A stretch of DNA of 64,000 nucleotides, from contig NZ_CP062006.1 in NCBI RefSeq assembly GCF_017487345.1, positions 2,982,001-3,046,000 on the forward strand. Direction: 5' to 3'. Origin of the DNA: Brevundimonas pondensis (GTDB lineage Bacteria; Pseudomonadota; Alphaproteobacteria; Caulobacterales; Caulobacteraceae). The notes under the pieces were generated by a model. That model did no database searches and had not been told where the DNA came from. It was given only the letters and a program-made list of their open reading frames with translations. How positions within the stretch are numbered: position 1 is the first letter of the stretch; every line of letters starts with the position of its first letter. The position numbers were made by a program, and so were the translations under genes. Positions 19,630-63,173 of the stretch are shown here, in pieces.

Positions 19630-19713
19630 GAAGGCTGATTGGCGATTGCCGCGCGGGAATTCAAGACGCAAGCGAACCGGGAACGGGCGGCGAGCGTGGC
19701 CGTTGTGGGACGG

Positions 19714-47412: not shown

Positions 47413-48435
47413 TCAGGCGGCGGGTTCTTCCGACACCCGGACCAACAGCTTGCCGTCATGGTCGCCGGTGAACAAGCGGTTCAACGAAGTCACGGCCCCT
47501 TCCAGACCGTCGTCCACGTGAACCTTCCACTGGACCCGGCCGTCGGCCAGCCACGGCCCCATCTCCTCGACCATTTCCCGGGCGCGGTGGGCGTAGTCCA
47601 GCACCAGGAAGCCCTGGACGTTCAGGCGATGGGTGATGATCCGGCTGAAGTTCGGCGACGGCGGCATCCGTGTGGCGTTGTAGCTTGAGATCAAGCCGCA
47701 GACGGCCATGCGGGCATGAACGTTCAGCCGGTTCCACACCGCGATCATGATGTCGCCGCCGACGTTCTCGAAATTCAGGTCGATCCCGTTCGGAGCCAGA
47801 CGATCCAGCGCCTCGCCCACGTCCTCGTTCTTGTAGTCGACGGCGGCGTCGAAGCCGAGTTCCTCGGTCAGCCAGCGGCACTTGTCCGGACCGCCGGCGA
47901 TGCCGATGACATGCGCGCCGCGCTGCTTGGCCACCTGACCGGCGATGGAGCCGACGGCGCCCGCCGCCGCCGAGATCACCAGGGTCTCGCCCGCCTTGGC
48001 CTTCAGCACGTCGGTGACGCCGAAATAGGCGGTCAGGCCGGTCATCCCCAGCACCGACAGGTTGGCCGTCAGCGGCATGCCCGGCGCGCGGTGCACCGGA
48101 CGAAGGCCCTGCTCGTGCACCACGGCGTAGTCGGCCCAGCCGCCGGACAGAGGCGTGACGATGTCGCCCGCCTTGAACCGTTCGGACTTGGACGCCTCGA
48201 CCACGCCCAGGGTCAGGCCGCGCATGACCTCGCCCAGACCGACCGGCGGCAGATAGCCCTGACTGTCGTTCATCCAGGTGCGGTTGGTGGGGTCCAGCGA
48301 CAGGTAGATGGTGCGAACCAGAACCTCGGCGTCCTTCAGGTCCGGAACCGGGGTCTCGATCAGCTCCAGATCACCGTCCTGGATCAGTCCCTGGGGCCTC
48401 TGGCGAAGAACCCACTGACGATTGCGAAGGCTCAT
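47413..48435 (-). CDS. NADP-dependent oxidoreductase, CurA/leukotriene B4 dehydrogenase type
   Basis: 340 residues from MSLRNRQWVL. Zinc-free MDR enzyme: YLSLDPTNRTWMND, NLSVLGMTGLTAYFGV and the nucleotide motif VISAAAGAVGSIAGQVAKQRGA, followed by GGPDKCRWLTEELGFDAAVDYK, all typical of double-bond reductases acting on enones. Candidates include curcumin/prostaglandin-reductase-like activities. Extending the frame to 48648 crosses the candidate small RNA and its terminator, so the short start is used. Confidence 0.93.
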   Translation of the reverse strand: MSLRNRQWVLRQRPQGLIQDGDLELIETPVPDLKDAEVLVRTIYLSLDPTNRTWMNDSQGYLPPVGLGEVMRGLTLGVVEASKSERFKAGDIVTPLSGGWADYAVVHEQGLRPVHRAPGMPLTANLSVLGMTGLTAYFGVTDVLKAKAGETLVISAAAGAVGSIAGQVAKQRGAHVIGIAGGPDKCRWLTEELGFDAAVDYKNEDVGEALDRLAPNGIDLNFENVGGDIMIAVWNRLNVHARMAVCGLISSYNATRMPPSPNFSRIITHRLNVQGFLVLDYAHRAREMVEEMGPWLADGRVQWKVHVDDGLEGAVTSLNRLFTGDHDGKLLVRVSEEPAA

Positions 48436-48506
48436 GGCGCATCTCCAATGCGTTTTCTTTGAGAACTCATTAGGCGTGGATGCCGCAGCTCTGTCGAGAG
48501 GCTTCC

Positions 48507-48535
48507 AAAGAAAAAGCGGACCGTTTCGGGCCCGC
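48507..48535 (-). terminator. Intrinsic terminator of the candidate small RNA
   Basis: Leftward, GCGGGCC (48535-48529) pairs with GGTCCGC (48522-48516) with one G-U pair and a short CGAAAC loop, then TTTTTCTTT (48515-48507). It separates the EcfG promoter from the oxidoreductase gene at 48435. Confidence 0.8.
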
Positions 48536-48615
48536 CTTGAGGTGGCATCATCGAGAATGAGGTGCGGAGGCGGACCGGCGAACCGGTCAAGTCGGGGGCG
48601 TCTTTGCCTCCGCTT
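48507..48615 (-). ncRNA. Candidate stress-induced small RNA (GsrN-like), about 109 nt
   Basis: Reading leftward from about 48615, an exact EcfG promoter is followed by a compact RNA. A 5' stem GCGGAGGC (48613-48606) pairs perfectly with GCCUCCGC (48571-48564). It encloses an unpaired C-rich segment (AAAGACGCCCCCGACUU, 48605-48589) and an inner hairpin GACCGG-UUCG-CCGGUC (48588-48573). A linker leads to a terminator hairpin (48535-48516) with TTTTTCTTT ending at 48507. In Caulobacter crescentus the sigma-T dependent GsrN RNA is of similar size and uses a C-rich 5' loop to bind target mRNA such as katG. Homology to GsrN is inferred from promoter, size and architecture; the ends are predicted. 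Confidence 0.7.
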
Positions 48616-48621
48616 GCGTCT

Positions 48622-48646
48622 AACGGCCCGGATTGAGGACGGTTCC
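48622..48646 (-). promoter_or_regulatory. EcfG promoter of the candidate small RNA
   Basis: Leftward GGAAC (48646-48642), 16-base spacer, CGTT (48625-48622): exact match to the general stress sigma factor consensus. Expected transcription start is around 48615. It diverges from the rightward EcfG promoter at 48669, the two -35 elements being 22 bases apart. Confidence 0.85.
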
Positions 48647-48668
48647 ATAGACGTCGACGCGGCGAGCC

Positions 48669-48693
48669 GGAACGTCGCCGTCCTCCTTGCGTT
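48669..48693 (+). promoter_or_regulatory. EcfG promoter of the small membrane protein gene
   Basis: GGAAC (48669-48673), 16-base spacer, CGTT (48690-48693). The AAGGAG ribosome site is at 48705-48710 and the ATG at 48717, so the predicted leader is short and well placed. Confidence 0.85.
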
Positions 48694-48716
48694 GCTGGAG
48701 CATGAAGGAGACCGCG

Positions 48717-48980
48717 ATGACTCATCAGGATCCCCATTCCCATTCGGCCGACGCCGTGGCCGACCACACCCCCATCGAGGCCCAGTATGTCCGGCAGGGT
48801 CGAGGCGGCGTCCGCATCCTGTGGCTGCTGATCGTCTCGGCGGGGACGGCGGCCGTCCTGTTGCTGGGTATGTGGCTGCTCAGCAATGGCGGCTTCCAGA
48901 GGGTTAATCCCGACGCCGGCGGACGCCCCGCCGACACCGCCGCCTATGACGGCGCAGCGCCGCCCTTGCCGCCGGCCTGA
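48717..48980 (+). CDS. Small single-pass membrane protein, predicted stress-response target
   Basis: 87 residues. His/Asp-rich N-terminus (MTHQDPHSHSADAVADH), one membrane helix (~33-55: VRILWLLIVSAGTAAVLLLGMWLL) and a ~30-residue polar tail rich in Pro, Gly and Ala. AAGGAG six bases before the ATG decides the start over 48687 and 48702. No known family. Preceded by an exact EcfG promoter and next to phyR, so induction in the general stress response is inferred. The function is unknown; the histidines could bind metal. Confidence 0.8.
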   Translation: MTHQDPHSHSADAVADHTPIEAQYVRQGRGGVRILWLLIVSAGTAAVLLLGMWLLSNGGFQRVNPDAGGRPADTAAYDGAAPPLPPA

Positions 48981-48984
48981 ATTG

Positions 48985-49014
48985 AAAAGACCCCGACGGC
49001 GAACCATCGGGGTC
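48985..49014 (-). terminator. Intrinsic terminator after phyR
   Basis: GACCCCGA (48989-48996) and TCGGGGTC (49007-49014) form an 8-base-pair stem. The T-rich tail (TTTTCAATT) is on the leftward strand, so it mainly ends phyR transcription, and may also serve the convergent small membrane protein gene. Confidence 0.75.
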
Positions 49015-49038
49015 GAAGCCACAGCGACGCGGGAGGGG

Positions 49039-49833
49039 TCAGGCCGCCTGTTTCTGGCGCGAGGGGTGGAAGAAAAGCGCCTGGCTGATCGCCGCCTTCA
49101 CCGTCTCGGGCTGGAAGGGCTTGGTGATCAGGAAGGTCGGCTCCGGCCGCTCGCCGGTCAGCAGACGCTCGGGGAAGGCGGTGATGAAGATAACCGGCAC
49201 GTCGAAGCGTTTCAGGATGTCCTTGACCGCATCAATGCCCGACGATCCGTCTGCCAGCTGAATGTCAGCCAGAACGAGCCCCGGACGGTGGCGGGTCACG
49301 GCGTCCACAGCCTCGCCATGGGTGGTGGCCGTGCCAGTGACATTGTGGCCCAGCTCGCGCACCAGGCTTTCGATGTCCGCCGAGATAATGGCCTCATCCT
49401 CAATGATGAGGACATCAGTCGCCAGTTCAGCGTCGATATCGGACTGCGCCTCAGCGATCAGGCGCTCGACCGAGCGCGGATCCACCCCGAGGATCTGCGC
49501 CGCCTCGGAGGGCGTGAATCCTTCCAGGGCCGTCAGCAGAAAGGCCTGGCGCGAACGCGGCGAGATCCGCATCAGCCGCCGCGAGGCGTCGTCGCCGGCT
49601 TCCAGACCGCTGACATCCTCAAGTTGGGCTCCGGTCGATGACCAGATGGCGTGGAAGACATGATACAGGGCCACACGCGGCGTCATGTCTGTCGGCAACT
49701 GGCGTTCACCGGCCGCGAGCGCTTCAAGCGCAACGCGCACATAGTTGTCGCCCGTGACCTGATCGCCCGTCAGCGCCCGCGCATAGCGACGGACATAGGG
49801 CAGATGCGGCGCAAGCCTGGCCAGTAGACTCAT
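49039..49833 (-). CDS. phyR: General stress response regulator PhyR (anti-anti-sigma factor)
   Basis: 264 residues. N-terminal sigma-factor-like domain (~1-130: MSLLARLAPHLPYVRRYARALTG, SPRSRQAFLLTALEGFTPSEAAQIL) that mimics EcfG, joined to a receiver domain with VLIIEDEAIISAD, phosphoacceptor Asp ~190 in ADIQLADGSSG and Lys in LITKPFQ. On phosphorylation it binds NepR and frees EcfG. Divergent from nepR-ecfG, with its own exact EcfG promoter, giving positive feedback. Followed by a terminator. Confidence 0.98.
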   Translation of the reverse strand: MSLLARLAPHLPYVRRYARALTGDQVTGDNYVRVALEALAAGERQLPTDMTPRVALYHVFHAIWSSTGAQLEDVSGLEAGDDASRRLMRISPRSRQAFLLTALEGFTPSEAAQILGVDPRSVERLIAEAQSDIDAELATDVLIIEDEAIISADIESLVRELGHNVTGTATTHGEAVDAVTRHRPGLVLADIQLADGSSGIDAVKDILKRFDVPVIFITAFPERLLTGERPEPTFLITKPFQPETVKAAISQALFFHPSRQKQAA

Positions 49834-49886
49834 ACATATTCCCCGACTGTCAGCGTCCTCGAACTGAAGACGCGCCAAACTGTCAC

Positions 49887-49911
49887 AACGTGTCGGGCGC
49901 GCAACGGTTCC
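49887..49911 (-). promoter_or_regulatory. EcfG promoter of phyR
   Basis: Leftward GGAAC (49911-49907), 16-base spacer, CGTT (49890-49887), 54 bases from -10 to the phyR ATG. Exact consensus, implying autoregulation. Confidence 0.9.
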
Positions 49912-49953
49912 CCTTCGGCGCGACAAGCTTGAGCATAAAAACGCGACGCCCTA

Positions 49954-49978
49954 GGAACTCTTGCAGGGAAGCAGCGTT
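49954..49978 (+). promoter_or_regulatory. EcfG promoter of nepR-ecfG
   Basis: GGAAC (49954-49958), 16-base spacer, CGTT (49975-49978), 51 bases before the nepR ATG. Exact consensus. Confidence 0.9.
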
Positions 49979-50028
49979 TTCGGCTTCCATGAACTCCAAA
50001 TTCAGGCTTGGGCGGCGGCCGCGACTCC

Positions 50029-50235
50029 ATGATCAATCCTAAGGAAACCACCCCGCGTCCCGACACGCCGACGGCCAGGGACCACGGGCTGGAAGAAGTA
50101 CGTCTGCGCCAACAGGCCATCGGCGTGAAGCTGCGCCACATGTTCGACCAGGTGGTCAACGAGCCGGTTCCGGACGAATTCCTGGACATCCTGCGACGCG
50201 CCGACGAGCGCTCGTCGACCAAGGAGGGCCAGTGA
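50029..50235 (+). CDS. nepR: Anti-sigma factor NepR
   Basis: 68 residues from ATG 50029. Two amphipathic helices typical of NepR are seen: EEVRLRQQAIGVKLRHMFDQVVNEPVPDEFLDILRRAD (~26-62), with the conserved IGxxLRxxFDxVVxEPVPDEF core. It holds EcfG inactive until phosphorylated PhyR takes it away. The stop overlaps the ecfG GTG by four bases, keeping anti-sigma and sigma synthesis in step. AAGGAGG for ecfG lies inside its last codons. No clear Shine-Dalgarno for nepR itself. Confidence 0.96.
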   Translation: MINPKETTPRPDTPTARDHGLEEVRLRQQAIGVKLRHMFDQVVNEPVPDEFLDILRRADERSSTKEGQ

Positions 50236-50840
50236 GCAGCAACGGCGCACCGCCTAAACCGCCCTCCGCCGACGACGCCGGTTTCAAAAAGGAACTGGTG
50301 ACGCTCATTCCCCACCTGCGCGCTTTCGCCCGTACCCTGACCGGCGACCCGACGGCGGCCGACGATCTGGCCCAGGAAGCCATGATGAAGGCCTGGGATG
50401 CACGGGCCAGTTACCAGATGGGCACCAACATGAAGGCCTGGACCTTCATGATCCTGCGCAACCAGTTCTATTCGGAAAAACGCCGCTCCTGGCGCCAGAC
50501 ACAGCTGGACCAGGAAGCCGCCGAACGCACCCTGGTGGCGGTCGATGACCCCGAGGCGCCGGTCGCCCTGGACGAACTGCGTCAGGCCCTGAAGACTCTG
50601 CCGGAGGAACAGCGCGAGGCCCTGATTCTGGTCGGCGCCGGCGGCTTCGCCTACGAGGAAGCCGCCGAGATCTGCCAGTGCGCGGTCGGTACGGTGAAAA
50701 GCCGTGTTTCACGCGCCCGCAAGGCCCTGCAGGCCACGCTTGAGCGTGGCGGCTATGGCCGCGACGGTCAGGCCGCCGGCGACGCCATGCGCTCGATTCT
50801 GGCCGACGCCGACAGGCTGAGCGGCGCCGGGCGGGACTGA
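50232..50840 (+). CDS. ecfG: General stress response ECF sigma factor EcfG (SigT)
   Basis: 202 residues. Region 2 (~20-90: LIPHLRAFARTLTGDPTAADDLAQEAMMKAW, NMKAWTFMILRNQFYSEKRR) and region 4 (~125-180: LDELRQALKTLPEEQREALILVGAGGFAYEEAAEICQCAVGTVKSRVSRARKAL). Clear EcfG-type ECF factor. Reads GGAAC-N16-CGTT promoters, five of which occur in this island. GTG start with AAGGAGG five bases upstream, overlapping nepR. Confidence 0.97.
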   Translation: MSSNGAPPKPPSADDAGFKKELVTLIPHLRAFARTLTGDPTAADDLAQEAMMKAWDARASYQMGTNMKAWTFMILRNQFYSEKRRSWRQTQLDQEAAERTLVAVDDPEAPVALDELRQALKTLPEEQREALILVGAGGFAYEEAAEICQCAVGTVKSRVSRARKALQATLERGGYGRDGQAAGDAMRSILADADRLSGAGRD

Positions 50841-50843
50841 CGC

Positions 50844-52610
50844 GTGCTGCGGTTCGGCCGCGCGTGGGGGCGCAAGCTGGGCCGCCCGAGCGTCCAGGGC
50901 ATTCGCTTTCGCATGGGTCTGGCCATGGCCGTGGCCCTGCTTCCGATCCTGATCCTCAGCGCGATCCAGACCCAGGGCGGCTTCCGCCGCCAGGCCGAGG
51001 ATCAGCGCATTGATCTTCAGCTCGCGGCCGAGCGCAGCGCCGCCGACGCCAAGGCCCGGATCGACAGCACGGTCGTCTTGCTGCAAGCCCTGGCGCCTGA
51101 GGCGGGCGGCTTCTACTGCGAACCCCGCCTGACCGCCCTGGTGGGGCGGCTGGACAGCCTGTCGGCCCTGCACCGTTACAGCGCGACCGGCGAGTCCGTC
51201 TGCGCTTCTCGACCCCGTGACGCCGCCTCACCCCCAGCTTCGGGCGACATCCGCGCCCAGGACTGGTACCAGAGACTGCGCAACGGCGAGGACGTGGTCA
51301 TGGCCCGCGCGCCCGACGCGCCGGGCTCGCTGATCGTCGCCGTGCGCTCCGAACGGCCCCTGGGGGCCTTCCAGGGCGTAATGGCGGCCGTCATTCCCCT
51401 GACGGCCCTGCAACCCGACATTCGCGACCCGGCCCTCCCGACAGGCGCGCAATCGGCCGTGATCGACGCTGAAGGCCGCATCCTGGTCTCGACCGACGCC
51501 GCGGCGTTCGCCATTCGAGGTCCCACCAATGTGAACGGCTGGGCCCACAACGCCGTAAGAGGCGAGACCCCCCTGTTCGAGGGGCGCGACCCGCGCGGCC
51601 GCCGCCACGTCTACGCCGGCGCCCCCCTGGCGGGGCGGGATCTGTTCGTCCTGCTTTCAGCGCCTGCGTCAGGCCTGCTGTCCTGGGCGCGCCTGAATCC
51701 CATTGGCTCTTTCCTGCTGCCTCTGGCGGCCTGGCTGACCGCCTTTCTCGCCGTCATGCTGCTTTCAGAGCGGATCGTCATCCGCTGGCTGTCCTACCTG
51801 GAACGCGTCGCCGCCATCTACACGCGAGGCCGTTTCTCGGTGCGCCCGGTGCAGGCCGAGCACGCCCCCGCCGAAATTCGCGCCCTGGCGCGCACCCTGG
51901 GATCACTGGGCGACACGATCACGCGACGCGACAAGGCCTTGCTGGACTCCCTGGACGAGAAGGACGCGCTGATGCGCGAGATCCATCACCGGGTGAAGAA
52001 CAACCTGCAGATCATCTCGTCTCTGCTGTCGATGCAGCAACGGGCGGTGGCCGACCCGGCGGCGCGCGCGGCGCTCGGCGACACCCGCCAGCGGATCACG
52101 GCGCTCGCCCTGATCTATCGCACCCTCTACCAGAGCGAGGACATCCGCGAGGCCGATTCGCACACCTTCCTGACCGAACTGGTCGGGCAGCTGGTGGCGG
52201 GCGAAGCCATGCGCGGCCCGCTGGTCACCAGTTCGGTGGACGCCGACTACCTGATCATCGATCCCGACCGGCTCGCGCCCGTCGCCCTGTGGCTGGTCGA
52301 GGCCGTGTCCAACGCCCAGAAGCACGCCTTCGCGGGACGCGGCGGCGACCTTCAGGTCCGGTTCCGCGTCCTGGGCGACACCAGCGTTCTGGAGGTCCAG
52401 GACGACGGGCCCGGCATGTATGACGCCGACGCCACCGGCGTGGGGCGCACCCTGATGAACGCCTTCGCCAAGCAGTTGCGCGGCCACGCGGAAATGATCG
52501 CGGCGCCCGACGGCGGCTCTATCGCCCGCCTGACTTTCGCCACGCCGGAAGCCCCCGCGCCCGCTGCAAGCGGCAGCTTGACAGGAACCGCGCCACATCC
52601 CCCGCGTTGA
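50844..52610 (+). CDS. phyK: Stress sensor histidine kinase of the HisKA_2/HWE type, PhyK-like
   Basis: 588 residues. Membrane helix ~27-45, periplasmic sensor domain (~46-283, CHASE/dCache-like), second helix ~284-306, HAMP-like linker, then HisKA_2 with EIHHRVKNNLQIISSLLSMQ at residues 379-398 and ATPase domain with LVEAVSNAQKHAF and VQDDGPGM. GTG start three bases after the ecfG stop. Its place in the phyR-nepR-ecfG cluster indicates it phosphorylates PhyR. The 3' end contains the entericidin promoter. Confidence 0.93.
   Translation: MLRFGRAWGRKLGRPSVQGIRFRMGLAMAVALLPILILSAIQTQGGFRRQAEDQRIDLQLAAERSAADAKARIDSTVVLLQALAPEAGGFYCEPRLTALVGRLDSLSALHRYSATGESVCASRPRDAASPPASGDIRAQDWYQRLRNGEDVVMARAPDAPGSLIVAVRSERPLGAFQGVMAAVIPLTALQPDIRDPALPTGAQSAVIDAEGRILVSTDAAAFAIRGPTNVNGWAHNAVRGETPLFEGRDPRGRRHVYAGAPLAGRDLFVLLSAPASGLLSWARLNPIGSFLLPLAAWLTAFLAVMLLSERIVIRWLSYLERVAAIYTRGRFSVRPVQAEHAPAEIRALARTLGSLGDTITRRDKALLDSLDEKDALMREIHHRVKNNLQIISSLLSMQQRAVADPAARAALGDTRQRITALALIYRTLYQSEDIREADSHTFLTELVGQLVAGEAMRGPLVTSSVDADYLIIDPDRLAPVALWLVEAVSNAQKHAFAGRGGDLQVRFRVLGDTSVLEVQDDGPGMYDADATGVGRTLMNAFAKQLRGHAEMIAAPDGGSIARLTFATPEAPAPAASGSLTGTAPHPPR
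52584..52608 (+). promoter_or_regulatory. EcfG promoter of the entericidin-type gene
   Basis: GGAAC (52584-52588), 16-base spacer, CGTT (52605-52608), lying in the last codons of phyK and touching its stop. 47 bases before the small lipoprotein ATG. Exact consensus. Confidence 0.85.
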
Positions 52611-63043: not shown

Positions 63044-63173
63044 ACCCTGCGGCGTCTGCGCACGTTGTCGGCGGATCGAGGCGACCCTAACTCTATCCTC
63101 AGCGGGACGGGCCCCTCTGGCGGCGCTTCGGCGACGTGATGTCGGACCGCATCATTCGATGACGAGGACCCCC

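Follow-up and report, generated by a model that had tools for sequence, protein, structure and literature searches.

A GsrN homologue beside the stress locus of Brevundimonas pondensis and a candidate pairing site before phyR

The closest described relative of the RNA considered here is GsrN of Caulobacter crescentus (ccna_R0081; Rfam family RF01529, CC3552), an RNA of 106 nt which, according to PMC5869019, is cleaved near nt 53-54 to give a stable 5' isoform, and whose first 58 nt are enough for peroxide survival. Pairing of its C-rich loop with G-rich mRNA sites has been shown: 7 nt of katG, given as GUCGGGG, pair with seven loop nucleotides including four of the six C (C-rich small RNAs of other bacteria cited in that paper are alike in setting a C tract on a G tract). 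The nepR and sigT mRNAs co-purified with GsrN in Caulobacter, and gsrN was without effect on a reporter of the general stress response (GSR), i.e. no feedback was seen. BLASTn predicted homologues in Caulobacter, Brevundimonas and Phenylobacterium, as a rule next to the stress locus (PMC5869019). As Brevundimonas homologues near this locus are in print, the kind of RNA described below is already known.

We analysed a stretch of 64,000 nucleotides of the B. pondensis genome (NZ_CP062006.1, positions 2,982,001 to 3,046,000; hereafter the window, whose numbering is used for all coordinates). A first-pass annotation made from the letters alone had proposed a GsrN-type RNA on its minus strand, with an EcfG-type promoter, an 8-bp 5' stem, an inner UUCG hairpin and an intrinsic terminator, and all four were found where it had placed them, the stem with perfect pairing (Table 1). 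One RNA of about 100 nt in the window combines 5' stem, C-rich loop, inner hairpin and terminator. C. crescentus GsrN shares the EcfG-type promoter and the same layout, linker included (∼106-108 nt in both), but has six C in its loop where the window RNA has five. Both the family and the usual place by ecfG, nepR and phyR agree with the homologues predicted for Brevundimonas and Phenylobacterium, whereas gsrN is distal to the stress locus in C. crescentus (PMC5869019).

Table 1. Features of the gsrN locus (window coordinates)
Feature	Position	Strand	Basis or remark
gsrN EcfG-type promoter GGAAC-N16-CGTT	48622..48646	-	exact motif; GGAAC 48646-48642, 16-nt spacer, CGTT 48625-48622
gsrN (RF01529 CC3552 homologue), ~108 nt, inferred start 48613	48506..48613	-	Rfam, genus model
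Stem P1, 5' side GCGGAGGC	48606..48613	-	fold and covariation
C-rich loop part CCCCGACT, complement of phyR leader site	48590..48597	-	
Inner hairpin P2, GACCGG-TTCG-CCGGTC	48573..48588	-	fold and covariation
Stem P1, 3' side GCCTCCGC	48564..48571	-	fold and covariation
Conserved 3' linker CCTCATTCTCGATGATGC	48545..48562	-	mean identity 0.952
Intrinsic terminator hairpin, then T-rich tail	48513..48538	-	fold; tail in 98/99 copies
Dehydrogenase gene	47413..48435	-	downstream of gsrN on the same strand
Small membrane-protein gene	48669..48980	+	divergent from gsrN; ~92 aa, one hydrophobic stretch, no Pfam match
phyR (response regulator, sigma-like domain)	49039..49833	-	Pfam PF22029, PF22233, PF00072
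AGTCGGGG at phyR ribosome-binding position, proposed GsrN site	49841..49848	-	sequence complementarity
EcfG-type promoter before phyR	49887..49911	-	motif search
EcfG-type promoter before nepR-ecfG	49954..49978	+	motif search
nepR	50026..50235	+	ORF, named from sequence, start codon assumed; conserved between phyR and ecfG
ecfG (ECF sigma factor)	50232..50840	+	Pfam PF04542, PF08281

RF01529 matches positions 48611-48514 with 57 bits (cut-off 50, E 1.8e-6), and a search of the whole genome gives this match only. The homology, which the first-pass annotation had inferred and proposed to check by a covariance search with the Caulobacter RNA, is shown by this score above the curated cut-off. Against a covariance model that we built from 49 sequences of its own genus the copy scores 93.9 bits; the C. 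vibrioides RNA scores 113 bits against RF01529, and the window gsrN is a rather divergent copy of the family. A pattern search of named genomes returned 10 loci, one of them in C. vibrioides DSM 9893, where the loop has six C and the katG leader contains GTCGGGG, the complement of CCCCGAC. The published length of 106 nt equals the model length of RF01529, and the mapped residues C53, T54 and T64 (PMC5869019) fall on the same letters when the 5' end is set 2 nt ahead of the model. Judged by sequence, RF01529 is GsrN: in C. vibrioides the RNA agrees with the published one in its loop and mapped ends, and the site described in print is present in the katG leader. The window RNA is almost certainly a GsrN homologue. 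By the same offset of 2 nt, the window RNA most likely has its 5' end at 48613, where the 5' stem begins, rather than near 48615 as had been suggested. Among rejected candidates, the Rfam L20 leader model reaches 17.7 bits in the window against a cut-off of 58.7, which is chance. Five weak second RF01529 matches (35-37 bits) were seen as possible second gsrN copies; they are probably chance, as both of the two that were read (L145 and L146) are without the GGAAC promoter. A second match to the genus model in genome G315 (L290) has neither the promoter nor the neighbours.

The window contains six copies of the motif GGAAC-N15-17-CGTT, where 1.26 are expected on average, and no shuffle out of 100 reaches six. 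Four of the six lie within 48622-49978, before gsrN, the small membrane-protein gene, phyR and nepR-ecfG. Two more exact GGAAC-N16-CGTT motifs outside the gsrN-nepR stretch (52584-52608 and 19680-19704, both on the plus strand) may be chance. We read 99 gsrN copies, namely the window's and 98 of 109 further primary copies. In 98 of the 99, GGAAC precedes the model start by 35-36 nt, compared with 237 of 19645 control positions, and the strict GGAAC-N15-17-CGTT is present in 71 (88 of 19645 control positions). The promoter suggests that gsrN is EcfG-dependent.

The window RNA (108 nt) is predicted to fold with -44.2 kcal/mol (z -3.5; two of 200 shuffles are equally stable), and its nt 1-58 give z -4.0, with none of 200 shuffles as stable. 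The first-pass annotation had also described a C-rich segment exposed as a single strand; the C tract is there, but a fully open state is not what the predicted fold gives, in which short helices can close round it. Stem P1 has eight pairs in the window and up to 12 in other members of the genus. In the 49-sequence alignment, 94.9% of the cells of the two 5' helices are paired and 16 of 19 pairs show double changes; slid versions, a control that preserves relatedness, are 35-59% paired, and in 500 shuffles the observed value was not reached on any of five measures, although kinship alone can beat such shuffles without any structure. The comparison across relatives that had been proposed for the 8-bp stem therefore gives compensatory changes in both 5' helices, and conservation extends to GGAAC and the T-rich tail, each in 98 of 99 copies.

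RF01529 matches 208 of 299 sampled genomes of the family and 110 of 131 in the window's genus, where the genus model matches 121. The copies closest to the window's are L130, L126, L129, L132 and L141 (88 to 84% identity). In the genus, no other 18-nt stretch of the RNA is as well conserved as the 3' linker CCUCAUUCUCGAUGAUGC: while the 5' C-rich loop is the most conserved part according to PMC5869019, here the linker (0.952) is about as conserved, compared with 0.968 for the 8 nt of the C tract with its flanks and 0.905 for the 13-nt loop. Ten copies (L279-L284, L286, L287, L142 and L144) have a cut-down 5' domain, with a run of four or five C and no GACTTG; they retain linker, promoter and neighbours, and RF01529 misses them or scores them low. 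At the gsrN place beside phyR in genome G180, a copy with a different 5' domain without the usual C run (L289) retains the linker as CACCTCATTTCTCGATGATGC.

The RNA had been placed upstream of the stress locus; gsrN instead lies 3' of phyR and in the same orientation. In 86 of the 91 loci with at least 2.5 kb of upstream sequence, phyR, nepR and ecfG all lie upstream of gsrN, and in five all three are missing. A relative of the small membrane-protein gene, which has its own GGAAC-N-CGTT promoter, is found in 73 of 99 loci, with the strict promoter on its side in 73 of 73. Five loci (L085, L106, L107, L111 and L139) have gsrN with the small membrane-protein gene and the dehydrogenase gene and without adjoining phyR, nepR and ecfG. 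In genome G192, phyR lies elsewhere in the genome, and GTCGGGG still stands before its ATG.

Among the neighbouring genes, phyR is the one with a conserved match to the loop. AGTCGGGG in the window (49848-49841) forms eight perfect pairs with loop positions 48597-48590 (duplex of -16.5 kcal/mol). We scanned six neighbouring genes, from -60 to +120 of the start, for the complement of the loop of the same genome: at least 7 nt complementary to the own loop were found near the phyR start in 75 of 88 loci (control 11.8%), against seven of 88 for nepR (23.4%), 13 of 87 for ecfG (9.7%), eight of 73 for the small membrane-protein gene (17.5%), one of 89 for the dehydrogenase (23.8%) and 18 of 81 for a kinase (30.4%), and these five show no clear 7-mer excess against either loop or linker. 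By energy, the starts of nepR, ecfG and phyR pair with the loop 3-4 kcal/mol more stably than control, a difference within about one s.d. GTCGGGG lies at most 40 nt from the phyR ATG in 80 of 88 loci, and at -12 to -18, the ribosome-binding position, in 78; its flanking bases are conserved to 0.74 at most, except for the A that follows (0.99). A single GTCGGGG near an ATG is not rare (four in the window against 2.1 expected); its conservation before one gene stands out. In the own genome as a whole, AGTCGGGGGC occurs nine times forward and zero times reverse (control 9 and 14), which is no excess. Outside the genus, GTCGGGG is at this position in none of 28 phyR leaders (16 from the genus Caulobacter and 12 from genus g6), which mostly have a GGGAGG-type site; it occurs once elsewhere among them (L344), and two Caulobacter loci (L331 and L332) have GTCGGGAGGGG at the ribosome-binding position. 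Nine genomes from yet other genera were compared; GTCGGGG is at the phyR position in those of g3, g7 and g9. The sections of PMC5869019 seen do not name phyR as a GsrN target, and we found no report of it as such in the parts of the open-licence literature covered.

The weightiest alternative is that the RNA is GsrN and its loop acts on other G-rich mRNAs, GTCGGGG being just the ribosome-binding site of phyR and its match with the loop incidental; we judge this reading to be evenly balanced between true and false. GGGGA before phyR could alone serve as a ribosome-binding site, and in the Caulobacter and g6 leaders this place is likewise taken by a purine-rich site. GTC ahead of the G run is unnecessary for ribosome binding, yet it is present in 78 of 88 phyR leaders, and the five other tested genes have no such site before their starts. 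Covariation between the two partners was looked for as well. In L131 both sides have changed (loop CCCCAAC, leader GUUGGGG), which speaks for pairing: this loop has -14.7 with its own leader, compared with a mean of -9.9 over all leaders, although the leader of L131 binds other loops well too (-14.2). Over all loci, however, permuting the leaders gave -15.20 against the observed -15.31, with 109 of 1000 permutations giving a value no higher than that observed, so that coevolution is not significant; and GTCGGGG is found in 71 of 80 leaders with a CCCCGAC loop and in seven of eight without, i.e. loop and leader variants are not associated. It is for these two reasons that an ordinary ribosome-binding site is possible. 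GTCGGGG is retained in loci where the loop is only partly complementary to it, although in four of the seven such leaders G-U pairs make pairing possible. It is also retained before phyR in eight more loci, whose loop is cut down, and in genome G186, which has no match to the genus model. ATCGGGG stands before phyR in L054 and L285, where the loop is intact; all these cases count against the phyR step. It also stands there in G107 and G207 (no genus-model match) and in G180 (L289, 5' domain replaced); in these three genomes no C-rich-loop GsrN was seen, and their ATCGGGG was counted for the phyR step.

Two other readings bear on what the RNA acts on or belongs to. The first-pass annotation had mentioned pairing of Caulobacter GsrN with katG; the site is present in the C. 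vibrioides leader and missing from the 71 tested leaders of the window's genus, so that katG was rejected as a target through the published site. We compared katG leaders of 160 nt: for the genus Caulobacter the 30 best-scoring places (46 of 61 searched genomes matched), and for the window's genus 71 (116 of 131 genomes matched). GTCGGG is found in 12 of the 30 Caulobacter leaders (control mean 2.2), which means that the site is not universal there, and the full GTCGGGG in seven; in the 71 leaders of the window's genus, GTCGGG (control mean 3.6), TCGGGG and GTCGGGG are each found in none, and GGGGCG in five, not above the control mean of 6.8. katG is present in the window genome, and GUCGGGG was not found in its leader. 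GsrN could still regulate katG in this species through another site: the leader has GGGCGT, the complement of ACGCCC in the loop, and GGGCGTAGGCT is common to the katG leaders of the window's five closest relatives by gsrN. A lone 6-mer match is about what chance gives, and with the genus counts above we hold such regulation to be unlikely. That the RNA is the terminated leader (attenuator) of the dehydrogenase gene is far less probable still. In 89 of 99 loci this gene follows gsrN in the same orientation, but 10 show none after gsrN (some on short contigs), it was not found in nearly 8 kb after gsrN in C. vibrioides DSM 9893 (L035), and the Caulobacter RNA was shown to work as an RNA of its own when placed at an ectopic site (PMC5869019).

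Taken together, the best explanation is very likely that of a gsrN gene with an EcfG-type promoter and a C-rich loop. EcfG would transcribe gsrN leftward from 48613 to the terminator, and the 5' stem would present the C-rich loop for pairing with G-rich mRNA sites; that the window GsrN acts through this loop is probable. The best-supported partner found is the adjacent phyR mRNA with GUCGGGG (AGUCGGGG in the window), and compared with Caulobacter GsrN the window RNA is without the katG site and with the phyR site. GsrN at the ribosome-binding position would hinder translation of PhyR, which frees EcfG from NepR, so that less PhyR would damp the response that made GsrN. We suggest repression and not activation because of the position of the site alone. 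That phyR is a direct target seems to us possible and slightly less probable than its opposite; equally tentative is the broader proposal that, in the window's genus, the main target of GsrN has moved, with loss of the katG site, to the phyR ribosome-binding position as negative feedback.

The window RNA confirms and widens the published GsrN family. Should the phyR step be true, related genera would differ in the wiring of a core small RNA of the general stress response of alphaproteobacteria, its role having shifted from helping catalase to restraining the stress response, and gsrN and phyR would make up a compact feedback circuit of two genes separated by 1.2 kb. The reporter test in Caulobacter did not find such a feedback loop (PMC5869019), which counts against the phyR step.

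A pairing of the 3' linker with the phyR coding region was considered as well and is not supported. In the window, the linker can form 17 contiguous pairs (two of them G-U) with the codons of the I-I-E-D-E receiver motif, and with wobble allowed its exact matches in the genome are its own opposite strand, the phyR site and one G-rich, mostly wobble site. Over 85 loci the observed mean of -25.0 compares with -22.8 for synonymous shuffles, and only seven of the 85 reach three or fewer of 60; the Asp codon that favours pairing (GAT) is used in nine of 76 cases at the linker site against 298 of 1617 in phyR overall. Of five genes compared, phyR gave the best pairing with the linker in 64 of 83 loci, a preference for which the protein motif can account. 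Elsewhere in the window, a terC RNA (Rfam RF03067) lies at 63099-63154 on the plus strand, with 50.3 bits (cut-off 39.9).
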